Positions 1,781-13,459 of a DNA stretch of 64,000 nt are shown here, piece by piece. Each line of letters begins with the position of its first letter. The stretch's first letter is position 1. This DNA is from an uncultured SAR86 cluster bacterium (GTDB lineage: Bacteria > Pseudomonadota > Gammaproteobacteria > Magnimaribacterales > Magnimaribacteraceae). Where the stretch lies: the NCBI GenBank assembly GCA_902630715.1, contig CACOVO010000001.1, positions 1 through 64,000 on the forward strand. Reading direction: 5' to 3'. The translations under genes and the position numbers were made by a program. The notes under the pieces were generated by a model that was not told the origin of the DNA, searched no databases, and saw nothing but the letters and a program-made list of their open reading frames with translations.

Positions 1781-1809
1781 ATAACTACTAGTCATAATTC
1801 ACTAGTTAT
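1781..1809. other. Imperfect inverted repeat at end of ceramidase-like gene
   Basis: ATAACTACTAGT and ACTAGTTAT can pair with a 3-nt bulge across an 8-nt loop. The hairpin overlaps the TAA of the upstream gene. It has no following U-run, so it is a weak terminator at best. Confidence 0.25.
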
Positions 1810-3341
1810 CTAGCTTGTGATTCTTCTATAAGCTTAACAAGGTTTTCGTGAATTATAGGCGCGGTATCTGGACCCAAAGATACTATCTCGCCATAAGTTT
1901 CTTCGTCCTCTCCATAGATCCAAGGGGCATCTTCATCCCATTCACTTTTTGGGATGATGTAACCAATAGAATCATTTGCCAAATTCACCATCAAATTTAG
2001 TTTGTCTGGAAATTGACTGCGCAAATGTGGAACTTCTTGCGGGGCTATCGTGTAATCGGCACCTAAAGGATTTTCTATGCCTCCAACAGCAATTTCTGGA
2101 TAAAGTTCTCCTGGAACACCTGTAATAGTCGCTTCTCCTAATTGTATGTATGCTACTTCACTTAAATAGCGAATAAATGGTGGCATCAGACTGAATTTAG
2201 TATCGGTATCAATCACGCCAAGTAAAGTGCCCAATGAGAGCATGAAATTTTCTATGCCTAATTCTATTTCTGCCGAGTGGACAGTTATGGATGGATTTGG
2301 TGACTGCTTAAAATCACCTATATTAAAAGCATCTATTACACTGTTCGCTAGACTATAGCCATATGCACGTGCTTTAGCATGACTTGGTTTAGTAAGCATT
2401 TTTTTCAAAACAGGATCATAAATTGGATCGGTCGGTCCTGATGTCATCAAACCTCCAATGTTTCCTGTAAGCCATAACGTGGTTCCACCAAGCCCAGCTC
2501 TTATGAGCTGATCATCATAATAAATGCCGTCACTGATGCCACTTCTTAAGTAGCCTGCAACATCAGAAGTTAATTCTAGATTTTTATCCCATGTAAGCTC
2601 GACATGAATTCCAAAGTTAATTAACGAGCCTATTATTGACCCATCGGGGCGATTAAACAAAATTACTCTTATGTCGTCATCTATAACGATGGGTTTTCGT
2701 TTATCTTTGATAGGCGTACGAGGATTGGTTGGAATTAAAGCTTGACTCATTTCTGCGGGCTCCAAATTATCTATAGCCATTTTTAATGTGCTTATGAAAT
2801 CTTTTTTAAGCTGCTCCATGTATGCATCATCAACACCGCTCTTTAAAAAACTTGGACCCCAAAGGCCTTGAGTATCTGGGCCCTCATGATTATGTGTTGC
2901 ATGCACCATGATGTAATCTAAACCCCACTCTGCAGGAACATCTTCGCGGACACTAAGTACAAATTTTCTCATCAAGCCAATAGTGTCAGCACTAATAATT
3001 GCTATCCGAGTCTGGCCGTCATCAATCACCGCAGTTACGGCCATGAGGTCATCTTTAACTCCTTGAGCAGCCCGTTTATTTTGAAAACCTGCCATCCAAA
3101 CAGCATCGAACTGGTTATTGCCGTTTAAATCAGTCCATTTATCGATATCTGGATCAAATTGAGCATCGTTATTTATATCCTCCCATTCATCAATAAGATC
3201 AGGGGTAATGGGAAGCTCAGCAAATCCAACTTTAAGTTCGTTTGCATAGATTTGAGAAGTCAAAAAAAGGGAAAACATCATGAGAATGTAAAGTCTGTTT
3301 TTTGTAAAACTAATTAGATTTAAACAGTATTTTAATTTCAT
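1806..3341 (-). CDS. Neutral/alkaline ceramidase-like secreted hydrolase
   Basis: Resembles the neutral/alkaline non-lysosomal ceramidase N-terminal domain family, zinc amidases that cleave N-acyl bonds in ceramide-like lipids. The start GFAELPITP and the motif MVHATHNHEGPDTQG, with metal-ligand histidines, are typical of the family; IGSLINFGIHVELT and ITGVPGELYPEIA fit later conserved blocks. I place the start at the ATG at 3341 (MKLKYCLNLISF), 21 codons inside the ORF-track start, because it opens a signal peptide ending about SQIYA and because it overlaps the upstream gene's stop as ATGA. An Asp/Asn-rich stretch after the first strand (DINNDAQFD, DLNGNNQFD) looks like a Ca2+-binding loop. 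About 511 residues, shorter than true ceramidases because the C-terminal domain is missing. The substrate is not known; lipid or peptide amides are possible. Confidence 0.7.
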   Translation of the reverse strand: MKLKYCLNLISFTKNRLYILMMFSLFLTSQIYANELKVGFAELPITPDLIDEWEDINNDAQFDPDIDKWTDLNGNNQFDAVWMAGFQNKRAAQGVKDDLMAVTAVIDDGQTRIAIISADTIGLMRKFVLSVREDVPAEWGLDYIMVHATHNHEGPDTQGLWGPSFLKSGVDDAYMEQLKKDFISTLKMAIDNLEPAEMSQALIPTNPRTPIKDKRKPIVIDDDIRVILFNRPDGSIIGSLINFGIHVELTWDKNLELTSDVAGYLRSGISDGIYYDDQLIRAGLGGTTLWLTGNIGGLMTSGPTDPIYDPVLKKMLTKPSHAKARAYGYSLANSVIDAFNIGDFKQSPNPSITVHSAEIELGIENFMLSLGTLLGVIDTDTKFSLMPPFIRYLSEVAYIQLGEATITGVPGELYPEIAVGGIENPLGADYTIAPQEVPHLRSQFPDKLNLMVNLANDSIGYIIPKSEWDEDAPWIYGEDEETYGEIVSLGPDTAPIIHENLVKLIEESQAR

Positions 3342-3523
3342 TCTTTGTTTTGTATGTGTAGTGTGCCTGGCAGAATTGCTATAAGCATTATTAATGTAGC
3401 CCAATAATCACCTCCTAACAATTTACCTGAAACGTAATCATTAATTCCATATCCAATTAATATAATCAAACAACCTAAATGAAGGTATAGAAAAAGCTTC
3501 TTAAGAGTTAACTTTTTAATCAC
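3338..3523 (-). CDS. Two-helix micro-protein, coupled to ceramidase-like gene
   Basis: 61 residues with a GTG start at 3523, 9 nt after the glmS-like repeat R1. GGAGT, inside R1, lies about 11 nt upstream and could serve as the ribosome site. Two hydrophobic segments (about 8-28 and 38-54) suggest a hairpin inner-membrane protein. The stop overlaps the ceramidase-like ATG (ATGA), a translational-coupling arrangement. The motif LIIL...GG..D.AT..MLIAI is shared with the 57-residue protein at 3761-3934 (LIIL...D.AT..FLIAI), so the two are probably related. That would make this gene part of the same cassette family even though no repeat is visible on its left. Function unknown. Confidence 0.55.
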   Translation of the reverse strand: MIKKLTLKKLFLYLHLGCLIILIGYGINDYVSGKLLGGDYWATLIMLIAILPGTLHIQNKE

Positions 3524-3532
3524 TGTTCTGAA

Positions 3533-3550
3533 TTACTCCACGGTAACTGA
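3533..3550 (-). repeat. R1, glmS 3'-end-like repeat
   Basis: Minus strand TCAGTTACCGTGGAGTAA encodes SVTVE-stop. It is the leftmost clear copy. A gene start (GTG 3523) follows 9 nt later. The arm to its left (minus strand TTCAGAACAGTGATT) has no partner I can find, so the left end of the array is open. Confidence 0.75.
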
Positions 3551-3718
3551 TTAGTTTTTTGTGTTACCCTTTTTTTACTTTTATTCCCTGTTTTTTGAAC
3601 ATTTCCATTAGATTTTTCTTGATTAAATCTCTGGAGTCTTCGGGTTTTACGACTACACCCTCTAATTTCTCTTCTTTTGTTTTTTCTTTTTTCTTTTTCA
3701 TAACAGTTACACCCAAAA
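3551..3718 (-). mobile_element. Cassette unit 1 (R1-R2)
   Basis: A 168-bp unit holding one 45-codon gene. Its ends are imperfect inverted repeats: 3555-3567 (TTTTTTGTGTTAC, plus) against 3718-3706 (TTTTGGGTGTAAC, minus), 10 of 13 identical, with the same 4-nt asymmetry as the other units. Confidence 0.55.
3564..3701 (-). CDS. 45-residue Lys-rich micro-protein
   Basis: Too short for the ORF track. ATG at 3701, TAA at 3564-3566; begins MKKKKEKTKEEKLEG and ends KKQGIKVKKG. Strongly basic with a charged N-terminus and a likely helix in DSRDLIKKNLMEMFKKQG. No family is recognised. It fills most of the unit between R1 and R2, starts 17 nt after R2 with a GGGTG sequence upstream, and points the same way as glmS. 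A nucleic-acid-binding or regulatory role would fit the charge, but that is only a guess. It could also be a chance frame; its fit within the cassette pattern argues against this. Confidence 0.5.
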   Translation of the reverse strand: MKKKKEKTKEEKLEGVVVKPEDSRDLIKKNLMEMFKKQGIKVKKG

Positions 3719-3736
3719 TTATTCCACAGTAACGGA
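3719..3736 (-). repeat. R2, glmS 3'-end-like repeat
   Basis: Minus strand TCCGTTACTGTGGAATAA encodes SVTVE-stop. It differs from the chromosomal copy R7 at wobble positions and in the stop codon only. Confidence 0.75.
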
Positions 3737-3943
3737 GCAAGGTGAACGGGTCTTACATTCTCAACTATTTTTGTTCATAAATTTTTTCATTGAAAGAGAA
3801 ATTATTGCTATTAAAAAAAATACCGTGGCAACATCATGGAGACCGTTGATGCCAAATAAACTTTCAGATAAATACATCGCTATTGCAAGAATTATTAAAA
3901 CCCAGAATTCATATTTTTTTAAAAACTTAATCATTTTTTGAAA
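3737..3943 (-). mobile_element. Cassette unit 2 (R2-R3)
   Basis: A 207-bp unit holding one 57-codon membrane micro-protein gene. Unlike the other five units, I could not find terminal inverted repeats at the predicted positions (about 5 of 16 matches), so its arms may have decayed or changed. Confidence 0.5.
3761..3934 (-). CDS. 57-residue two-helix membrane micro-protein
   Basis: Absent from the ORF track because of its length. ATG at 3934, TGA at 3761-3763, starting MIKFLKKYEFWVLIILAIAMY and ending MKKFMNKNS. It has two hydrophobic segments (about 10-29 and 34-50) with basic ends, typical of a membrane hairpin. It starts 9 nt after R3. It resembles the 61-residue protein at 3338-3523 in length, N-terminus (MIK.L.K) and the second-helix motif AT..FLIAI. 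Small hairpin proteins of this type can be toxins, holin-like proteins or enzyme regulators; nothing here tells which. Confidence 0.55.
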   Translation of the reverse strand: MIKFLKKYEFWVLIILAIAMYLSESLFGINGLHDVATVFFLIAIISLSMKKFMNKNS

Positions 3944-3961
3944 CTACTCCACCGTAACGGT
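3944..3961 (-). repeat. R3, glmS 3'-end-like repeat
   Basis: Minus strand ACCGTTACGGTGGAGTAG encodes TVTVE-stop, so the first residue is Thr in place of Ser; the other differences from R7 are synonymous. Confidence 0.75.
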
Positions 3962-3993
3962 ATTGAATTGGAGTATGATTTGATTCATGACGA

Positions 3994-4179
3994 TTAACTG
4001 TAAGAATTCCAATATATCTTAATCATTCTTTTTACTCCTGGTGTTTTAATTTCTTCAATATCCTTTAGGTTTTTGTAAATCAACGAGTATGTGTCTGGTG
4101 TGAGGTCATCAGGTCTGGTTCCCCCTTTCGTCTCTCTAAAAAACTGGGTTGTAAGTGACATTATTTCTTCTTTATCCAT
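3994..4179 (-). CDS. Small soluble protein of cassette unit 3 (second gene)
   Basis: 61 residues (MDKEEIMSLTTQFFRETKGG...). Acid and base residues are mixed, no signal peptide or membrane segment is seen, and predicted helices include EEIMSLTTQFFRET and YSLIYKNLKDIEEI. It overlaps the end of the upstream gene by 19 bp, so it is probably translated with it. I do not recognise the family. A two-gene unit of small proteins raises a toxin-antitoxin pair as a possibility, but neither sequence shows a known toxin motif. Confidence 0.5.
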   Translation of the reverse strand: MDKEEIMSLTTQFFRETKGGTRPDDLTPDTYSLIYKNLKDIEEIKTPGVKRMIKIYWNSYS

Positions 4180-4406
4180 CCTTCTCTTTCATCGTGATTT
4201 AAATGTTGGTCAACTGATGAACCATTTCCAGTATATATATCTTCTAAAGAGGTATCCTTTTGTAAACATTTTCTATATCCAGAGTTTGGAGAATTTATCT
4301 CATTATAAGTTCTACCCCTTCCATCGTTATCAATCCAATTCCACCTATCAATGTGTAGTTTCTTCCTAACTCTTTCGGTGGTTTTATTTGTTCTAAAATA
4401 TTTCAT
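4161..4406 (-). CDS. Small basic protein of cassette unit 3 (first gene)
   Basis: 81 residues (MKYFRTNKTTERVRKKLHIDRWNWIDNDGRGRTYNEINSPN...). The N-terminal third is strongly basic with Trp and Tyr, and the C-terminus is charged (HDEREGWIKKK). There is no signal peptide. ATG at 4406 lies 33 nt after R4. No family is recognised. The opposite-strand ORF at 4091-4369 is its shadow. Confidence 0.5.
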   Translation of the reverse strand: MKYFRTNKTTERVRKKLHIDRWNWIDNDGRGRTYNEINSPNSGYRKCLQKDTSLEDIYTGNGSSVDQHLNHDEREGWIKKK

Positions 4407-4439
4407 TACTTAAATTAATTTTTAAATCACACTTCAAAT

Positions 4440-4457
4440 CTATTCAACGGTGACTGA
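4440..4457 (-). repeat. R4, glmS 3'-end-like repeat, identical to R7
   Basis: Minus strand TCAGTCACCGTTGAATAG encodes SVTVE-stop and matches the chromosomal glmS end (R7) at all 18 positions. R4 may therefore be the displaced end of this host's own glmS, with the units between R4 and R7 arriving later. Confidence 0.85.
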
Positions 4458-4490
4458 TTGGATTTGTGTGTTCCTATTTCTTTTTTTCAT

Positions 4491-5516
4491 TTACTTTTTT
4501 AAAGGTGTCATTACCCAATTTCCTTTAATGTCATAGAAATCAAATACACCTTCATATTTATCGTCTCCTAACCAAATACCGGTCCAGGTTCTATAACCGT
4601 CTCCAAAAATAATATTATTTCCTTCAAAAGACCAAGAATAATTCTTCAAATTTTTTCCTGAGGAATAAATTAAACCATTTCCTCTAAATTCAAATATGTC
4701 TGTTTTTCGTTCGGGGAGATTTTTATACCGTATTTCCCATGTTTTATTTGTGTTAATTCGGATGGTGTCCTGAAAATTAGTTCCAGTTCCAAATATCTCC
4801 CCTGTACTTCCTCCGTTCAATATACGTACTCTATAGAGAAGTTTTCCCTCATTATCTCTTACGTTCTCAAGATAATCCCCGAGACCACCTGTTCTCAGAT
4901 AAAAATATTCAAATTGTGGTTTCCCATTAATAATTCTTTTGTAACTGATCATGGTACCGTCTTTATATTCAGTTAAATCATAACTATTCTCAGTTATATT
5001 AGATCTAAGTGTTCCGTGTCTTTTTCCGTTTTTCCAATTTATTACCTTGTCCAATCTTCCATCTTCAGAATAAAAATTTTCCACACCTTCTTTCTTCCCA
5101 TTCTTAAAATAAACTTCAATAGATAATCTCCCATTAGGATTAAAAATTTTTTCATGAACACGTTCTCCTTTGTAATAGTCAGTAAAAGTAAATAGTTCTC
5201 CACTTGAATAATAATATCTAACAGGTCCGTGAATTACACCACCAACATACTCATAATGTGATTCCAAAGTTCCATCATATCTAAATTGTTTTGAGGGACC
5301 ATCTAATAGACCTCTGTAATAACTTTTCGAAAACTTTATATCTCGATTCGGTTCTTTTAGATAATAACCTATTACAACTCCTGTAATAGGTCTTCTGGTG
5401 TTTTGATCAAGTGTTATCCCTTCTTCAATCAATACGGGACCGGTTATAATTTTTCCCCTATCTTCACCACAGGAAAACAAAAATAAACAACAAAGAATTA
5501 AAAACAACTTATTCAT
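4491..5516 (-). CDS. Lipoprotein with YwqK/MORN-type repeats
   Basis: 341 residues. The N-terminus MNKLFLILCCLFLFSCGED is a lipoprotein signal with a lipobox (LFSC), so Cys16 is probably lipidated and the protein anchored in a membrane facing the periplasm. Residues about 55-205 hold repeated strand units (YYRGLLDGPSKQFRYDGTL, YFKNGKKEGVENFYSEDGRL, NWKNGKRHGTL), the pattern of YwqK and MORN repeat proteins; in some systems YwqK-type proteins act as antitoxins or immunity proteins. The C-terminal part (about 245-341, ending WTGIWLGDDKYEGVFDFY) resembles a small beta-rich domain. It is the main cargo of cassette unit 4. Its role is unknown, possibly surface protection or immunity. Confidence 0.65.
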   Translation of the reverse strand: MNKLFLILCCLFLFSCGEDRGKIITGPVLIEEGITLDQNTRRPITGVVIGYYLKEPNRDIKFSKSYYRGLLDGPSKQFRYDGTLESHYEYVGGVIHGPVRYYYSSGELFTFTDYYKGERVHEKIFNPNGRLSIEVYFKNGKKEGVENFYSEDGRLDKVINWKNGKRHGTLRSNITENSYDLTEYKDGTMISYKRIINGKPQFEYFYLRTGGLGDYLENVRDNEGKLLYRVRILNGGSTGEIFGTGTNFQDTIRINTNKTWEIRYKNLPERKTDIFEFRGNGLIYSSGKNLKNYSWSFEGNNIIFGDGYRTWTGIWLGDDKYEGVFDFYDIKGNWVMTPLKK

Positions 5517-5554
5517 TAACGTTAAGTAAAATTTATATTTTTTTGAATAAAGTT

Positions 5555-5881
5555 CTAGTTTAATGAAAATTTAGATATCTGGGGTATGATTTTCTTCTTC
5601 CTCAATAAATTTATTCTTTCTTCTCGTTGTCTATGTCTCTTTAAGACTGAATAAACTGATGTGTTGAACCAAGTATTACCTCTTTCAGTTTTAATACCCC
5701 AAGAATTCAATTTATCCCTTATCTTTCTATATCCTAGACCCTTTTCCTCATGTAGATATTTGATTAAGTTGAGTACTACTTGTTGTCTTTTTGAATATAC
5801 AGACCTAAAAGTTAGGTCATTTGACTCTATCTCTATTTCGAATTCTAAATATGGGATTGTGTTCTCAAAATAGGAACACAC
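5555..5881 (-). CDS. Recombinase-domain-like small DNA-binding protein (paralogue A)
   Basis: 108 residues from a GTG at 5881 that lies inside the terminal inverted repeat and 4 nt after R5. Residues about 47-85 (EKGLGYRKIRDKLNSWGIKTERGNTWFNTSVYSVLKRH) match the pattern of the 'Recombinase' DNA-binding region of large serine recombinases (G.gyr.Ia..Ln..GikT..G..w....v..iL). There is no N-terminal resolvase catalytic domain, so it cannot be a complete recombinase. It is clearly related to the protein at 6397-6666 (shared GLGYRKI, IKT.RGN, SVYS.LK, R.ER.N). Placed at a unit end and reading inward, it may bind the cassette arm as a recombination or regulation factor; that is inference. Confidence 0.6.
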   Translation of the reverse strand: MCSYFENTIPYLEFEIEIESNDLTFRSVYSKRQQVVLNLIKYLHEEKGLGYRKIRDKLNSWGIKTERGNTWFNTSVYSVLKRHRQREERINLLRKKKIIPQISKFSLN

Positions 5882-5885
5882 AAAT

Positions 5886-5903
5886 TTATTCCACCGTCAC
5901 TGT
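5886..5903 (-). repeat. R5, glmS 3'-end-like repeat
   Basis: Minus strand ACAGTGACGGTGGAATAA encodes TVTVE-stop. The arm of unit 4 abuts it on the left, and the arm of unit 5 begins 1 nt after it on the right. Confidence 0.8.
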
Positions 5904-6337
5904 TTAAGTTTGAACAGAGAATAAGATTTTTAAACCTCTTATCAAACATTATATAAAATCTTCTATACTTTTCTTTCATGTTCTTTTTAGAAACTCTGAC
6001 ATAAAGTCTTCACAGATTTTCTTGACTGCTTTTGCGTCTTCGTCACCAAAAGTTTTGTTTGGTCTATTTTCATAATCATTACAGAACTTTTCACATGCAT
6101 TGCTGGAATAAAATGCAGTAACGCCAAGATGAAGCATGTGTATAATCTCGTTTGTAGGTTTAATATTTTGCTTGGACAAGACAGTGCTGCAAACAGTTTT
6201 TATTTCCTCTTCAGTTGCAACTCTATTATTTGTTGACTCCCACTTTCTCAGATGATTGCCTGCCTGGAAAACGAGAGCATACTGAAGAATATTATATGCT
6301 CCGAATAATTCCTGAATACTTAATTCTCTGTTCAAAC
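5904..6337 (-). mobile_element. Cassette unit 5 (R5-R6) with perfect 18-bp inverted ends
   Basis: Bounded by TAAGTTTGAACAGAGAAT at 5905-5922 (plus) and its exact inverted copy at 6323-6340 (18 of 18), the latter running 3 nt into R6. The arm sequence is unrelated to that of unit 4, but the offset difference is again 4 nt. It carries one gene and no recombinase-like gene. Bases 5904-5975 hold only the arm and AT-rich sequence. Confidence 0.75.
5976..6335 (-). CDS. Unknown soluble helical protein, sole cargo of unit 5
   Basis: 119 residues with a TTG start at 6335 (MNRELSIQELFGAYNILQYAL...), 2 nt after the stop codon formed by R6 and within the terminal arm. Predicted all-helical and soluble, with four Cys (CSTVL, ACEKFCNDY, KICEDF) but no clear metal motif and no signal peptide. 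I do not recognise the family. As the only gene in a short mobile unit beside a restriction system it might be a defence or accessory protein, but there is no direct evidence. The start codon is uncertain because part of the reading frame could begin further in. Confidence 0.5.
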   Translation of the reverse strand: MNRELSIQELFGAYNILQYALVFQAGNHLRKWESTNNRVATEEEIKTVCSTVLSKQNIKPTNEIIHMLHLGVTAFYSSNACEKFCNDYENRPNKTFGDEDAKAVKKICEDFMSEFLKRT

Positions 6338-6355
6338 TTACTCCACCGTTACAGA
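6338..6355 (-). repeat. R6, glmS 3'-end-like repeat
   Basis: Minus strand TCTGTAACGGTGGAGTAA encodes SVTVE-stop; the codon just before it is AAG, so this copy preserves K-S-V-T-V-E as in GlmS (AKSVTVE). Confidence 0.8.
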
Positions 6356-6396
6356 CTTTATCCTACAGAGGGGATTATCTGTGTTTTGATGTTGAG

Positions 6397-6666
6397 GTGA
6401 CTTCCAATCAACTTTGGCACACCCATTATTCTCCCTACCAATCATTTCTCCATAATAAGATAAAGCAACTCAAAGCAGAAGGTTTGGGTTATAGAAAAAT
6501 TGCCAAAAGACTTAACGAAGAAAATATAAAAACCTCTAGGGGCAATATCTTTTTCCCTTCTAGTGTCTATTCCATTTTAAAAAAGAAGAAAATTAGAGAT
6601 GAAAGATTGAATCAAGAATTTGAAAAAAAGATATCTGAGTTTTTGTTTGAGTATGTGATTGATTAG
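6397..6666 (+). CDS. Recombinase-domain-like small DNA-binding protein (paralogue B)
   Basis: 89 residues from a GTG at 6397, about 20 nt inside the left arm of unit 6 and on the opposite strand to all other array genes. Residues about 26-65 (LKAEGLGYRKIAKRLNEENIKTSRGNIFFPSSVYSILKKKK) match the serine-recombinase DNA-binding pattern and paralogue A. There is no catalytic domain. Like paralogue A it starts at a terminal arm and reads inward, so the arm may double as its promoter or operator. It ends 3 bp short of the convergent hsdMS gene. Confidence 0.6.
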   Translation: MTSNQLWHTHYSPYQSFLHNKIKQLKAEGLGYRKIAKRLNEENIKTSRGNIFFPSSVYSILKKKKIRDERLNQEFEKKISEFLFEYVID

Positions 6667-6669
6667 AAC

Positions 6670-9141
6670 CTAGTCCTCACCCCAAACTTTATTGATTCTG
6701 TCTTGAATTTTCTGAGAATAGATTTCGATGAGTTTTTTATTCCCTTCTATAACTTTTCTTTCTTCTTCTATTCTTGAAAGAACATCAACTAAATCATTTT
6801 TTGAAGGAAGTGGAATTTTGTATCTCTTAAGGTCATTGATTGATAAATTTGGTTGATTTAGTGCGGTAGCATTGGATTCAACATATGAATGAAAGTTATT
6901 TGATTGTAGAAGAACAAAAATATAATCTTTAATTGTCTGTGTATCACAACTTATTGATGCGACCCTTTGATTTAAAAGTGAATCATTAAATGACTTAGGA
7001 ACTAGTGCCACTTTTACTCCATCTGCAATAATTGTTCTTGTAAGTGCAACCACAATATCATTTTCTTTAACTAAAAATTTTGAATGCTTTTCTTTGAATT
7101 CACTTGGAAGGAAGTCTATCTCATTAACAAAATCTCCTAACCCGACATTAGTGATTTTTATAGATTTTATTCCCTGCTCTTGTTTAAAGTCTTTACTGCT
7201 AAATGAGTACCCACTTAGTATTGAAGAAACCTTTTCCAACTCAACCATCTCCCAACTTGGATCAATATCAATAGTTGGTTTGTAGTTCTCAACAACTTGT
7301 TTACACCCATCAATAATTTTTTGATACCCCTCTAACTCATCAACTATTTCTTGTTGAACTTCGAGAGGTGGGAGGGGGATTTCTAAGGATTTGATATTTT
7401 TAGTGTTAATGCTTGCTTGATTGACTGCTTTTTGAGCATATCTTTTTGCATCATTTATGAAATTATTTGATTTAAATATAAACAATGCATAAAGAGGTAA
7501 TATTTGATTTTGAATTGGTTTTAATTTAATTAAATTTGAACCATGAACAATTTTTTTATTTAAGTTGAAGATTGCTGTTTTTGCCAAGTGATCCATGCTA
7601 TTTATGTGACTAAATAAAATATCTCCTTTTTGTAAAAAATTTGATTCATCTACAGAATCATCTGTCCATTTTGTTGCTGAAGGGTTAAATGTCCCATCTG
7701 CTATTGAGGCAATTCGTGAAACTCTATACCTTCCCCCTTCATCTTGTTGTTTGACATTTTTTCCGTTTTTAATTTCACTAAATACTGATTCCAAACTCAC
7801 TAGGTCAAAGTTTGATTGACGGTCTATTTGTGTCTTATATCTTTCTAAAGAAAGAATGTAATCATTCTGAATAATATCTTCTTTATCTACATACATTAAA
7901 AGATCTGAGTCTTCATTATCTGACATTTTTATTTGATCAATTACTTGAGGAATATCATTTTCTTTAATTTGATTTCTTTGTGCACCCAAATCAAATCCAT
8001 CATTTTTAACCTCTGCAAAGAAAACTGAATCTCTTTCTTTGTTTAATTTCTTATCAAGAATAAGAATAGATGTCTTAACACCTGCATAAGGATTAAAAAC
8101 CCCGGCAGGTAAAGAAATCACTCCTATCAGTGCATTTTCAATAAGTTGTTTTCTTAACTCTTTATATGCTTTACCAGTTTGAAAAATAATTCCCTCAGGA
8201 ACAATAATTCCTGCACGACCATTGGGTTTGAGGTGTTCTAAGATATAACTGGTAAATAAAACTTCTGCTTTCTTTGATTCAACTCCAAATCTCTTATGAG
8301 GTTGAATTCCACCTTTAGGAGAGAAGAATGGTGGATTTGCAAGAATCACATCAAAGTATTCATTCCATTTATCCTCAGATGAAAGAGTATCGTATTCATC
8401 GATCTTTGGAGTGCTGAAACCATGCAAATACATATTTACTAATGAGAGTCGAATCATTTCGGGAGATATATCGTATCCGGTCACATTCTCACCTACTTTC
8501 TTTTTATCTTCTGCAGAAAGTTGGTCACCTAATTTTTTATCTGTGTTGGTCTTTAAAATATGTTTATAAGATGAAATTAAGAAACCTGCTGTGCCACACG
8601 CAGGATCAAGAATTGTTTCATTCTTTTGTGGGTCAATAATCTCAACAATAAAATCAATAATATGTCTTGGTGTTCTAAATTGCCCTGCATCACCTTGTGA
8701 ACCCATGATAGAAATTAGATATTCAAATGCATCCCCTAGTTTTTCTGAGTGCGAATAATTAAATTCATTTATCTCTTTTAAAAACATGTTCAGTGTTGAG
8801 GGATCCTTAAAAGGAAGAAACGCATTTTTAAAAATATCTCTAAATAAATGAGGTGCAGATGGGTTTAGATACATACTTTCTATTGCTTGACTGTATAGGT
8901 TTACCTTATCGACACCACTGAGTTTTGTATCTAATAGATTCTTCCATGCATACTTTTCATAATCTCCTACGAAGAAAGAACCCTTACCCCCCATTTCAAT
9001 AGATTCCTGATCCATGTCATCCATGAACTTATAAATTAGTCCTGTTGTGATTTGTTCTACTTGAGTTTGAGGGTTTGGAATCTTTCCAACAAGAATATCT
9101 CTCAAAGTATCTATTTTGCGTCTAGTATCAGAATCAAGCAC
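6670..9141 (-). CDS. Type I restriction-modification fused HsdM-HsdS
   Basis: 823 residues joining a DNA adenine methyltransferase (HsdM) to a specificity subunit (HsdS). Residues about 1-125 are the HsdM N-terminal helical domain; the SAM motif DPACGTAGF is at about 179-187 and the catalytic NPPF at about 269-272. After about residue 425 come two target-recognition domains separated by a conserved helical spacer (IPLPPLEVQQEIVDELEGYQ) and closed by a second one (RIEEERKVIEGNKKLIEIYSQKI). Separate hsdM and hsdS genes are the usual form, so the fusion is less common. Its start overlaps the hsdR end by 8 bp. Together with HsdR it should methylate host DNA at a bipartite target and cut unmodified DNA. 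Confidence 0.9.
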   Translation of the reverse strand: MLDSDTRRKIDTLRDILVGKIPNPQTQVEQITTGLIYKFMDDMDQESIEMGGKGSFFVGDYEKYAWKNLLDTKLSGVDKVNLYSQAIESMYLNPSAPHLFRDIFKNAFLPFKDPSTLNMFLKEINEFNYSHSEKLGDAFEYLISIMGSQGDAGQFRTPRHIIDFIVEIIDPQKNETILDPACGTAGFLISSYKHILKTNTDKKLGDQLSAEDKKKVGENVTGYDISPEMIRLSLVNMYLHGFSTPKIDEYDTLSSEDKWNEYFDVILANPPFFSPKGGIQPHKRFGVESKKAEVLFTSYILEHLKPNGRAGIIVPEGIIFQTGKAYKELRKQLIENALIGVISLPAGVFNPYAGVKTSILILDKKLNKERDSVFFAEVKNDGFDLGAQRNQIKENDIPQVIDQIKMSDNEDSDLLMYVDKEDIIQNDYILSLERYKTQIDRQSNFDLVSLESVFSEIKNGKNVKQQDEGGRYRVSRIASIADGTFNPSATKWTDDSVDESNFLQKGDILFSHINSMDHLAKTAIFNLNKKIVHGSNLIKLKPIQNQILPLYALFIFKSNNFINDAKRYAQKAVNQASINTKNIKSLEIPLPPLEVQQEIVDELEGYQKIIDGCKQVVENYKPTIDIDPSWEMVELEKVSSILSGYSFSSKDFKQEQGIKSIKITNVGLGDFVNEIDFLPSEFKEKHSKFLVKENDIVVALTRTIIADGVKVALVPKSFNDSLLNQRVASISCDTQTIKDYIFVLLQSNNFHSYVESNATALNQPNLSINDLKRYKIPLPSKNDLVDVLSRIEEERKVIEGNKKLIEIYSQKIQDRINKVWGED

Positions 9142-11593
9142 TAGATAACCTCTCTAAATCAACCTTTCCTTTAATAAACTGTGGGATCATTTCTTGTAAC
9201 TCTTCTGGTAAATTCTTAAATGCCTGTCCTGAGGGATGAACATTTAGTTCAACAAATCTCCCTTCATCAACTATTTCTCTATATTCAGGATCAGTTACAT
9301 AAGATTCAAAAACCTCTTTTGCATCTTGGAAATGATCATCAGATGGATTTAATTCCTCATCTAATTTTTCAAAATCTTCCTCTAAACATTCATTTTTAGA
9401 TTTAATTCGATCTATATGACCAAATGCATGCAATAACAATTCTGAGACACTGAGTTTTCTATCGAGTTCGAGAGATTTCCCTAGTTTCTGAAGAGTGAAA
9501 TATTCCTCAGGTTTGTCCAAGATATTTTCCTCTAAATAATTTTCCGCACTCTCAAATTCCATGTTTTCAACAAAATTACGAATAGTAGAGTTGTCTGTCA
9601 CCACTGATTGAAAAGATCGGTATAAATCACGATCTATTTTCATTCCTTCATCACTAACAGTTATTTCTTCTAAAAACTTTAAAGGATCTTCGTTGTAATT
9701 AGTTACTTCACCGACTGGATCAATATCAATAGGGTCGTCGATAGGGACGGAAGGTTTTTGAGGGAGTTTTAATATTTCATCGTAATCAAACTCCTTCTCA
9801 AAATATTCATAGTTTCCAAAGAAGTCGAAGAGATTGAATTTATCCTTAATTGAATCAACATGATAAGGTATTTCATTTTGTGAAATCCAATGGAACTTAA
9901 AATCATTCTTTCTAGTACCACGACCTTTCATCTGAATAAATTCACTGGGTGAATACACTGGTCGCATCAAACATAAATTTAATATGTCGGTGCAGTCATA
10001 CCCTGTGGTCATCATTCCTACAGTGACACACACTCTGGTTTTAGAAGTTCGATAATGTTCATTAACTTGAGACTGTCCATTCAAACCATTGTTTCTAAAA
10101 TCTATAGTCATCCTTTGGGATTCATCAATACTTGAGGTTACTTGAACGGCAAAGTCTGAACGATACTGATTAGGAAAAAGTTTATCTGCAAGGATATTTA
10201 ATATCTGAGTTACTTTTGAGGCATGATTTTGAGACACACAAAAAATTAGAGTTTTCCCAATTTCACCAGTGTAGGGGTCTCTTTTTGCTTCTTTGAGAAA
10301 GGTTTCACAAAAAATAGTGTTGGTAGTATCAGAGAAAAACCTCTTTTCGAAATCCTTCTTCAAAAAGGTTTCTTCAACATCATTACCCTCATCATCAACA
10401 CCTTCAAAAATATACCCCTCATCCGACAATAACTCGGTGGTGATTTCAGTCCTAGCATCAAAAACTTTTGGATTAACCAGGTATCCGTCTTTTACACCAT
10501 CTTCTAGTGAATACCTGAATGTGGGTTCTCCACTTTCACAACCAAAGGTGGTGTAAGTGTCCAGCAAAAATCTTTTTTCTAATCCCCTTGGATCTTTCTC
10601 ACCAAGTTTATCGACATCAACTGACCTCAAGAAATTTCTTGGTGTTGCGGTTAGTCCAAGTTTAAATCCATTAAAGTATTCAAAAACCCTTCTGCTTCTT
10701 GCACCTAGAGAACGATGTGCCTCGTCTGAGATCACTAAATCAAAATCATCATGATTAAAGATTTTCTTGTATTTGTTTTTACTTACAAACGATTGCACTG
10801 TGGAGACCACAATCTCTGCTTTTCTCCAATCACCCTGATTTTCTTTCCAAATTACAGTTCTAAAATCATTTTTTAATACTTCATCAAATTCCTTTTGTGC
10901 CTGAGTCTCAAGTTCAAGTCTGTCCACAAGAAACAAGACTCTATTAACTTTATAAAGTCTCAAGAACATTTTGATAATTGCACAAGAAACTAAAGTCTTG
11001 CCTGTGCCTGTTGCCATTTCTAGAAGAAATCTGTCTTTTCCATCTTGTACACTCTTCTGCACAGAATGAACTGCCCCCAACTGGTAATCTCTTAATACCC
11101 TTATTTTATTTCTTGTTAAAAAGTCACTCCTTTTTGATTCATCAAGGTAATTGGGGTCTTTTTCAAAATTTGGGTGCTGAGTTACCCCAATGTAGTTATT
11201 AGAAATTTTCTCATCTTCTTTAACAGGTGGATTAAATTTCTCTCTTCTTAGTTCAATTTGCTCTTGAGTGGGAAATTGGTCTATAACGAATGGACTGCCT
11301 TGCTCTAAATCCCATTGATAGTGCTGAATTCCATTAGAGAGAATCACAAATCTGCAACCTAGTGAGTCTGCGTAACTCCGTGCCTGTTCTTTACCATCTA
11401 GGGGGGACTTCAGTTCTCTTTTTGCTTCAATTATGCACAGGTATGATCCTTTAGAATCAAGCAAGGTGTAATCAGCAAACCCTGAATCATTTCGGGTTTC
11501 CGTTTCGACATTTACTTTTCCATCATCACCTGGCAAAACCCATCCGGATTCTCTTAAGAGTTTGTCGATTATGATTCTTGCACTTGCCTCCAT
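9134..11593 (-). CDS. hsdR: Type I restriction enzyme R subunit
   Basis: 819 residues. The N-terminal nuclease domain has D41 and E56-A57-K58 (GFADYTLL...LCIIEAK), the PD-(D/E)xK pattern. An SF2 translocase follows, with Walker A ATGTGKT at about 194-200, DEAH at 290-293, the TATP motif after GFKLGL, and QMKGRGTR in motif VI. The C-terminus (about 620-819) is the EcoEI-type R C-terminal region that docks to the methylase. It is first in the two-gene operon, starts 30 nt after the glmS stop, and probably can be read from glmS transcripts or from a promoter in the unit arm. It needs the HsdM-HsdS fusion downstream for activity. Confidence 0.92.
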   Translation of the reverse strand: MEASARIIIDKLLRESGWVLPGDDGKVNVETETRNDSGFADYTLLDSKGSYLCIIEAKRELKSPLDGKEQARSYADSLGCRFVILSNGIQHYQWDLEQGSPFVIDQFPTQEQIELRREKFNPPVKEDEKISNNYIGVTQHPNFEKDPNYLDESKRSDFLTRNKIRVLRDYQLGAVHSVQKSVQDGKDRFLLEMATGTGKTLVSCAIIKMFLRLYKVNRVLFLVDRLELETQAQKEFDEVLKNDFRTVIWKENQGDWRKAEIVVSTVQSFVSKNKYKKIFNHDDFDLVISDEAHRSLGARSRRVFEYFNGFKLGLTATPRNFLRSVDVDKLGEKDPRGLEKRFLLDTYTTFGCESGEPTFRYSLEDGVKDGYLVNPKVFDARTEITTELLSDEGYIFEGVDDEGNDVEETFLKKDFEKRFFSDTTNTIFCETFLKEAKRDPYTGEIGKTLIFCVSQNHASKVTQILNILADKLFPNQYRSDFAVQVTSSIDESQRMTIDFRNNGLNGQSQVNEHYRTSKTRVCVTVGMMTTGYDCTDILNLCLMRPVYSPSEFIQMKGRGTRKNDFKFHWISQNEIPYHVDSIKDKFNLFDFFGNYEYFEKEFDYDEILKLPQKPSVPIDDPIDIDPVGEVTNYNEDPLKFLEEITVSDEGMKIDRDLYRSFQSVVTDNSTIRNFVENMEFESAENYLEENILDKPEEYFTLQKLGKSLELDRKLSVSELLLHAFGHIDRIKSKNECLEEDFEKLDEELNPSDDHFQDAKEVFESYVTDPEYREIVDEGRFVELNVHPSGQAFKNLPEELQEMIPQFIKGKVDLERLSSA

Positions 11594-11623
11594 GTTTACA
11601 AGTATAAACCCCCTCTGTAGAAC

Positions 11624-11641
11624 CTATTCAACGGTGACTGA
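11624..11641 (-). repeat. R7, chromosomal glmS 3' end (attachment core)
   Basis: Minus strand TCAGTCACCGTTGAATAG is the native last five codons plus stop of glmS. It is the template of the seven-copy repeat family and identical to R4. The inferred dyad centre of flanking arms falls about 2 nt to the coding side of the 18-bp midpoint. Confidence 0.8.
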
Positions 11642-13459
11642 CTTGGCCAAGTTTCTTGGCTGATCAATATCTGTGCCTTTCAGAATAGCAACATGATAAG
11701 CGAGGAGCTGAAGAGGTATAGAATAAATAAGAGGTGCAATGAGTTCTGGTATTTCAGGAAGCTCAATAAATCTTGTAATAGATTCATCATCGTGATGAGC
11801 GTCAGAATGCCCAAAAACATAAAGTTTACCGCCTCTTGCTCTTACCTCTTCTAAGTTTGATTGTAGTTTCTCTAGAAGATCATCATTTGGAGCGACTGCA
11901 ACTACTGGCATTTCTGAATCAACCAGGGCTAAAGGTCCGTGTTTTAATTCGCCTGCAGGATAAGCTTCAGCATGTATGTAGGAGATCTCCTTTAGCTTCA
12001 AGGCACCTTCCATAGCGACAGGATAATGAATACCACGTCCTAAGAATAAAGCATGTTCTTTCTGATCAAAATCTTCAGCCATTTCTATTATTTGATCTTC
12101 TAAAGCCATGACGGAATCTAAAGAATCTGGAAGCGCTCTCAAAGAGTTGTTGATAGCATTTTCTGCAACAGACGAGAGGCCGTGATGTCTGCCGAGAATA
12201 AGAGTCAACATCAATAAACCTACAAGTTGTGTTGTGAAAGCTTTCGTTGAGGCAACGCCTATCTCAGGTCCTGCCTTGGTCAGAAAAACAAGATCAGATT
12301 CGCGCGCCAGAGAGCTTGAAGGAACATTACAGATTCCTAGACAAGCTAAATAATCTGAGTCCTTAGCCGAGCTAAGACAAGCTAAGGTATCAGCAGTTTC
12401 GCCAGACTGAGATATAGTAATAAAAAGCGTATTGGGGGCAACTACCTTGTTCCGGTAACGGAACTCACTTGCAACTTCTACACTGCATGGCAATCCGGCG
12501 AGTCCCTCTAACCAATATTTGGCTACCGTGCCAGCATGAAAACTTGTGCCACAGGCTACTATTTGAACTGATTCTACTTGCTTAAAGACCTCGGGGGCAC
12601 TCGGGCCAAAAATTTCTTCTTGAACTCCAGAATCAGTTAATTGGCCTTCTAAAAGTCCTTTAATTTTAGCGGGTTGCTCATTGATCTCTTTAAGCATGAA
12701 ATGTCTATAATCTCCCTTATCTACAGTTTCTCCTAAAGACTTCGCAACCACTACAGGCCTTTCAACTTCTTTATCCTCAAGGTTCCAATACTTTGTTTCA
12801 GTTGAGGTAATTTCTGCAAGATCTCCTTCTTCAAGAAATACAAAGTTTTCAGCAAAATCTGCAAGCGCTAGTTGATCCGAAGCGATGAAGTTCTCTCCAT
12901 GGCCCATGCCAATAACTAACGGGCTTCCTTTTCTTGCAGCTGATAAAATTCCTGGCTCACTCTCACAAACAGCGCCAATCGCATAGGCGCCCCTTAAGTC
13001 TTTTACGGCCAACTTTAGAGCATCTGTAAGAGACAGATTTTTCTCTGTCATTTTTGCATGAATTAAATGCGCAATGACTTCTGTATCGGTTTCTGATTCG
13101 AATTTATAACCCAGGGCCTTAAGTGTTGTTCTAATTTCTTGATGATTCTCAATTATGCCATTGTGGATTACATATACTTGGTTGTTTGAGTGATGAGGAT
13201 GTGCATTTGCCTCTGTTGGTAGGCCATGAGTTGCCCATCTGGTATGGGCAATTCCCGTATTTCCATTGACGGGATTTTTATCAATTGAATTTTGTAGCTC
13301 TGCTACCTTGCCCGTACTCTTGAATACTTGAACTTTTTCTGTTTCATCAAAAATAGCAAGTCCTGCTGAATCATAGCCTCTATACTCTTGGCGCAAGAGA
13401 CCTATCAGCAATTTATCTACTGAAGGCTTACTGGAAGCAACCCCGATAATTCCACACAT
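11624..13459 (-). CDS. glmS: Glutamine-fructose-6-phosphate aminotransferase
   Basis: Makes glucosamine-6-phosphate from fructose-6-phosphate and glutamine, the first step to UDP-GlcNAc for peptidoglycan and LPS. 611 residues, the normal length. Cys2 after Met (MCGIIGVASS) is the N-terminal nucleophile of the glutaminase domain; two SIS sugar isomerase domains follow (CGTSFHAGTVAKYW, TISQSGETADT) and the C-terminus is DQPRNLAKSVTVE. It lies 3 nt after glmU, as usual after the atp operon. The last 18 nt are repeat R7 of the adjoining array, so the gene end appears to be an integration target whose coding content is restored by each insertion. Confidence 0.97.
   Translation of the reverse strand: MCGIIGVASSKPSVDKLLIGLLRQEYRGYDSAGLAIFDETEKVQVFKSTGKVAELQNSIDKNPVNGNTGIAHTRWATHGLPTEANAHPHHSNNQVYVIHNGIIENHQEIRTTLKALGYKFESETDTEVIAHLIHAKMTEKNLSLTDALKLAVKDLRGAYAIGAVCESEPGILSAARKGSPLVIGMGHGENFIASDQLALADFAENFVFLEEGDLAEITSTETKYWNLEDKEVERPVVVAKSLGETVDKGDYRHFMLKEINEQPAKIKGLLEGQLTDSGVQEEIFGPSAPEVFKQVESVQIVACGTSFHAGTVAKYWLEGLAGLPCSVEVASEFRYRNKVVAPNTLFITISQSGETADTLACLSSAKDSDYLACLGICNVPSSSLARESDLVFLTKAGPEIGVASTKAFTTQLVGLLMLTLILGRHHGLSSVAENAINNSLRALPDSLDSVMALEDQIIEMAEDFDQKEHALFLGRGIHYPVAMEGALKLKEISYIHAEAYPAGELKHGPLALVDSEMPVVAVAPNDDLLEKLQSNLEEVRARGGKLYVFGHSDAHHDDESITRFIELPEIPELIAPLIYSIPLQLLAYHVAILKGTDIDQPRNLAKSVTVE

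Follow-up and report, generated by a model that had tools for sequence, protein, structure and literature searches.

Downstream of glmS in an uncultured SAR86 cluster bacterium lie two small genes whose products match the DNA-binding part of large serine recombinases (LSRs). The locus raises the question of what such orphan proteins do at the ends of short DNA units, and which enzyme moves these units. SAR86 is among the most abundant bacterial groups of the surface ocean and has streamlined genomes. The stretch analysed here, called the window, is the first 64,000 nt of a 207-kb contig; the host genome measures 1.26 Mb, is 64% complete, and belongs to the same order as SAR86 AH-326-D05 (G125). 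Genomes and loci used for comparison are designated G and L, respectively.

An array of mobile units behind glmS

The last codons of glmS (S-V-T-V-E-stop) form the first of seven short repeats, or cores, which were located with the codon-aware pattern GTNACNGTNGARTRR. The seven cores run leftward from glmS within 13.5 kb, and the same pattern finds none in the other 50.5 kb of the window or in 243 kb of control loci; an order-2 Markov model expects 0.0. A search allowing three mismatches was by itself not above chance, and the codon-aware pattern was required. All seven cores lie on one strand and encode the GlmS tail V-T-V-E-stop with differing wobble bases; the 3′ end of a conserved gene is thus hit and its tail rebuilt at every core, as in cassettes of the SCC type. 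Between them, the cores delimit units of about 0.2-5.3 kb. The features are as follows, strand being given where one was assigned.

11624..13459, minus: glmS, the integration target (open reading frame and GlmS sequence; adjacency by tblastn)
11624..11638, minus: core 1, the native glmS tail, GTCACCGTTGAATAG
6338..6352, minus: core 2
5886..5900, minus: core 3
4440..4454, minus: core 4
3944..3958, minus: core 5
3719..3733, minus: core 6
3533..3547, minus: core 7
6348..11635: unit 1, type I restriction-modification genes and pB (bounded by cores; stretches 90% identical in L042)
6670-9141: unit 1, methyltransferase/specificity fusion (ORF reading)
9134-11593: unit 1, restriction subunit (ORF reading)
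6363..6376: unit 1, near arm CTACAGAGGGGATT, overlapping the 5′ part of pB (inverted-repeat comparison)
11606..11620: unit 1, far arm, inverted copy, CTACAGAGGGGGTTT (inverted-repeat comparison)
5896..6349: unit 2, with a 119-aa ORF at 5976-6335, minus (related ORF in L043)
6323..6340: unit 2, terminal inverted repeat, 18/18 match to 5905-5922
5905..5922: unit 2, second copy of this repeat, pairing with 6323-6340
4450..5897: unit 3, pA and a MORN-repeat lipoprotein-like ORF at 4491-5516, minus (ORFs, Pfam)
5868..5885: unit 3, near arm ATTTGTGTGTTCCTATTT (inverted-repeat comparison)
4462..4479: unit 3, far arm, inverted copy (inverted-repeat comparison)
3533..4450: units 4-6, short, with small ORFs of 57-81 aa (ORF list, core positions)
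6361..6666, plus: pB, orphan recombinase-domain protein that reads into unit 1 from its glmS-distal end (PF07508, E 7.8e-7; family alignment)
5555..5881, minus: pA, orphan recombinase-domain protein that reads into unit 3 from its glmS-proximal end (PF07508, E 4e-4)

The arms belong to individual units. Across arrays, the two ends of one unit agree as inverted repeats at 11.8 of 18 positions, versus 7.5 for ends taken from different units (0/2000 shuffles). Most units carry such a terminal inverted repeat, whose type varies from unit to unit, and a minority show no match between their ends. In another array (L129:9395), a minus-strand core is inverted within a plus-strand array, which hints at insertion or flipping in either orientation. 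The 119-aa ORF of unit 2 recurs in a different unit (L043:6097-6453); neither PADLOC nor Pfam (E ≤ 0.001) gives a match for it.

Units move between genomes. Parts of unit 1 recur in a member of another family (L042), in a different array and bounded by the core: one stretch of 3.7 kb and another of 0.46 kb are about 90% identical there, against only about 65-77% for glmS between the host genome and the others compared. L041 matches unit 1 at the pB end (90% identical) and nowhere else. Identical units recur across genomes beside differing neighbours; a 248-bp unit, for instance, is present in four genomes and has a different left neighbour in each (n = 4). One arm class alone is found in 56 of the order's 202 genomes, which represent 16 of 22 genera. 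Beyond the last core, a neutral-ceramidase-like ORF (1806-3404) may be part of the same mobile or variable region; its DNA is 83-86% identical to sequence on the downstream side of the L041 and L092 arrays, both from other families.

Crossover position and source of the recombinase

The crossover was mapped from the wobble bases of 151 cores. Wobble 1 tracks the upstream side (0.45 vs 0.27, 0/2000), and wobbles 2 and 3 track the downstream unit (0.78 and 0.71 vs 0.32 and 0.31, each 0/2000). In the same cores, no association was seen between wobble 1 and the downstream unit or between wobble 2 and the upstream end; at sites sharing an upstream end, wobble 1 agrees and wobbles 2 and 3 do not clearly do so. 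Therefore, exchange occurs within the AC dinucleotide between wobbles 1 and 2. This dinucleotide is invariant across cores, and the inverted arms are centred on it, as read directly from the sequences. In serine recombination, a 2-bp overlap lies at the centre of the dyad, and a serine-type 2-bp crossover at the dyad centre is a well-supported reading of the array's chemistry from these alignments.

Two other chemistries were considered. A tyrosine-recombinase origin was rejected: with wobble bases that vary every 3 bp over the core, no room is left for a shared overlap of 6-8 bp. A DDE transposase that duplicates a 2-bp AC target would give an identical crossover product geometry, but it is a very improbable builder of the array: the outermost 10 bp of the two unit ends differ, the inverted repeat begins only about 11 bp inside, TCN-GTN-AC is kept in non-coding right ends, and LSRs are found within such units.

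The catalytic enzyme itself is rare. The serine catalytic domain (PF00239) is absent from the host genome (64% complete) and was found in seven of the 202 genomes of the order, five of them above the cut-off, whereas the tyrosine-recombinase domain (PF00589) occurs about twice per genome on average, consistent with XerC/XerD. SAR86 AH-326-D05 (G125) has a complete LSR, with PF00239, PF07508 and a zinc ribbon, in a glmS-adjacent unit of the same design, that is, with the same core, inverted arms (16/18) and a member of the small-protein family beside glmS; the LSR stop codon lies 43 bp before the distal core. Two further elements, from other lineages, hold remnants: a related LSR (31% identical, E 2e-10) is represented in G385 by its C-terminal part, broken by an IS, and G205 has an internally deleted LSR whose N-terminal part is 57% identical; both end at a degenerate core. 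No LSR lies within the window or within nearly all arrays. The LSR-bearing unit of G125 also encodes a G2P-like rolling-circle replication protein (PF23343; L033:14184-14645), which suggests that it is an autonomously replicating circle.

Since no catalytic serine recombinase is found here or in about 97% of the order, mobilisation in trans is assumed. The initial annotation had suggested that the small proteins could direct a host or trans-acting recombinase, act as directionality factors or regulate the unit; a trans-acting enzyme is likely, and a host-encoded one is not, with PF00239 absent here and present in 7/202 genomes. The array is most likely of the SCC type, put together in trans by a mobile LSR. 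In the scheme that we infer, a cassette circle would carry attP, two inverted arms around a glmS-tail core, and the LSR would recombine the AC of this core with the AC of the GlmS tail codons GTN-ACN-GTN. Each insertion would rebuild T-V-E-stop, so that repeated insertions could build an array, and LSRs from rare autonomous units such as that of SAR86 AH-326-D05 would serve units that have none.

The orphan proteins and their possible role

The ORFs at 5555-5881 and 6397-6666 had been annotated as sharing three motifs with each other and as matching the DNA-binding part of LSRs without the catalytic domain. On these points the annotation was borne out: GLGYRKI occurs in both, together with IKTERGN/IKTSRGN and SVYSVLK/SVYSILK, and PF07508 is matched, while PF00239 is matched in neither ORF. 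Each gene also begins beside a core and an arm and reads into its own unit, as had been claimed, and the pA frame is open to 5896. The coordinates of the second ORF are right, but its GTG at 6397 is not the true N-terminus, because conservation begins near 6361. The two proteins share 50% identity over 88 aa (E 6e-18); pB has relatives 85-91% identical in L041 and L042, and pA has one 70% identical in L046, immediately after glmS.

Sequence and profile comparisons place the family with the recombinase domain (RD) of LSRs. First, PF07508 (Recombinase) matches pB above the Pfam cut-off and pA 0.1 bit below it, and is matched in 17 of 19 family members (best E 4.1e-9); in the Pfam search of these members, neither PF00239 nor a zinc-ribbon domain is matched. 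Second, in profile-profile alignment the family falls exactly on the recombinase domain of the G125 LSR (residues 181-229; probability 92%, P 6e-7). AlphaFold models (pLDDT 87 for pA, 82 for pB) have a three-helix core, to which the first model adds a strand at each end. In Foldseek with the pA model, Bxb1 and another serine integrase superpose at 1.4-1.5 Å over about 60 columns, among the best superpositions, and viral recombinases and resolvases also rank high; none of these E-values reaches significance. The pB model has no significant Foldseek match, and a sequence search of the PDB returned chance helices only. On sequence grounds, then, pA and pB are classed as RD-only relatives of LSRs and not as LSRs.

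They are not debris. The dN/dS ratio is about 0.1 for pB, and mostly below 0.2 for other comparable pairs, with a maximum of about 0.3 (0.26); as these values over the domain are far below 1, the small proteins are functional genes under purifying selection. That they are decayed, functionless tails of former full LSRs is barely credible: the missing catalytic domain and the stops in a few copies (L087, L088, L093, L094) would fit, but the selection test already contradicts it, and the family has a conserved N-terminal strand of its own outside the LSR match and is common to several lineages. Among the closest pairs, synonymous change is almost absent from the 20 codons that come first after the core but present in the remainder, indicating that the 5′ end of the gene overlaps a constrained DNA site, the near arm.

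Members of the family occur in 22 of the order's 202 genomes and, beyond it, in a few gammaproteobacteria. Homologues do not lie mostly far from glmS and mobile ends, and the proposed tie to glmS therefore stands: in most relatives with glmS on the contig no more than about 40 bp separate the start of the gene from the glmS stop, it follows glmS immediately in 16 loci, including G385, G309 and G435 from outside the order, and most remaining loci are inside glmS arrays. Searches of phage, plasmid and viral sequences gave no relative of the small proteins or of the G125 LSR, only distant generic phage LSRs. Five loci (L037, L038, L053, L057 and L058) gave TrpR-like matches, which were discarded as false. 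The small protein is missing from most units and from entire arrays (L128-L142), and thus is not required in cis.

In 9-11 of 15 units, the range depending on the counting of late codons, there is no in-frame ATG, GTG or TTG from the core to the conserved domain while the unit is integrated; units without a canonical start before this domain include those in L043, L045, L047, L050, L051, L052 and L056. Rare start codons or translational coupling to glmS may be involved. A start formed only in the circle, where the right end gives an in-frame ATG in 9/15 units, was not supported by independent arm classes: about 4 of 9 classes have one, versus 0.27-0.43 expected by chance.

Protein identity is predictive of the far-end arm of the unit, kilobases away (Mantel r 0.67, 0/5000), and this correlation could be shared descent. 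Units that have the same arm but no small protein are common: the arm of L055, TTTCGTTTGCAGAATT, occurs in about ten other genomes, none of them in the match list of the small protein. The orphan proteins may bind the arms of their own units and so lend arm specificity to the trans-acting LSR or control its synapsis. Such an arm-binding accessory role is favoured as fitting the arm and position facts best, and in combination with an LSR acting in trans on the glmS-tail array it is a tentative reading with somewhat less than an even chance. An occupancy blocker or a directionality factor would fit these facts too. A stronger version, a modular system in which a mobile LSR provides catalysis and core recognition and interchangeable orphan RDs matched to arm class choose the cassettes to be integrated or excised, is rather unlikely; if true, a DNA-specificity subunit would be separate from the catalytic one.

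Position bears on the idea that the orphan domain, sitting on the glmS-side arm, blocks LSR synapsis and thereby caps the array and protects its unit from displacement or excision. Of 17 arrays, 13 have the gene of common orientation in the unit next to glmS (7.8 expected, P 0.0035), a larger share of copies is broken away from glmS than beside it (4/10 vs 1/16, P 0.055), and the DNA-binding domain is the same as that of the LSR. However, a proximal position may just reflect the most recent arrival, and pA, pB and the copies in L052 and L054 are intact though away from glmS; such an immunity factor is unlikely. A recombination directionality factor, turning the LSR from integration to excision like an excisionase, is a quite unlikely role. 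The proteins are small, element-encoded and adjacent to att, and co-occur with an LSR in the G125 and G385 elements, but they are found in LSR-less units and missing from most units, and the few characterised LSR directionality factors are, to our knowledge, not copies of the RD.

Their HTH fold, and the restriction-modification genes to which they are linked in the window, in L056 and in L088, recall the controller proteins of restriction-modification systems. Regulation of cargo transcription is nevertheless decidedly doubtful, given that the genes also lie beside MORN, HNH and other cargo and track arm class rather than cargo, and that pB and its arm are common to L041 while the remainder of the unit is not. 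In L088 (3670-9582), from another lineage, a type I restriction-modification system follows the small protein behind glmS, and that small protein carries an internal stop.

Comparison with known systems

In the literature searched, no published description of a glmS cassette system was found, and the system in SAR86-group marine bacteria and some relatives appears to be unreported. If the interpretation is true, SAR86 has a widespread cassette-capture site at glmS, through which restriction systems and small genes are moved by serine recombination. The system would also offer glmS attB sites that occur naturally and tolerate wobble changes, together with a protein family in which LSR DNA-binding domains stand alone and have matched arms; site reading by LSRs would thereby become directly testable.

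Among integrases of the Bxb1, phiC31 and A118 type, the likeness is confined to the RD: pA and pB share PF07508 by sequence and profile, but have neither catalytic domain nor zinc ribbon. As in mobile integrons and CALINs, cassettes are arrayed at one site and many have no recombinase gene; unlike them, the glmS arrays have a 2-bp serine-type crossover and arms split to both unit ends, and their units have no attC-like site at one end. Tn7 and its relatives at attTn7 likewise use the 3′ end of glmS as a safe site. However, Tn7 inserts past the glmS stop, whereas the core of the array is the coding tail itself, repeated at every junction. Among the unit ORFs that were read, none was recognised as a Tns gene.

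The closest parallel is the staphylococcal cassette chromosome (SCC/SCCmec), in which CcrA/CcrB insert cassettes at the 3′ end of rlmH, rebuilding its tail and leaving direct-repeat cores, inverted arms, tandem composites and units without a recombinase; ccr genes probably act in trans on SCC units that have none. The glmS array shares the LSR-type cassettes, the conserved-gene 3′ end with a rebuilt tail, the direct-repeat cores with inverted arms, the tandem composites and the recombinase-less units, and CcrB is the only NCBIfam match of pA and pB, a weak one (E 0.003). It differs in its target, glmS in gammaproteobacteria, in its many short units with differing arm classes, in the rarity of its recombinase, and in the orphan RD proteins at unit ends. 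By analogy, the array appears to work like an SCC system located at glmS instead of rlmH.
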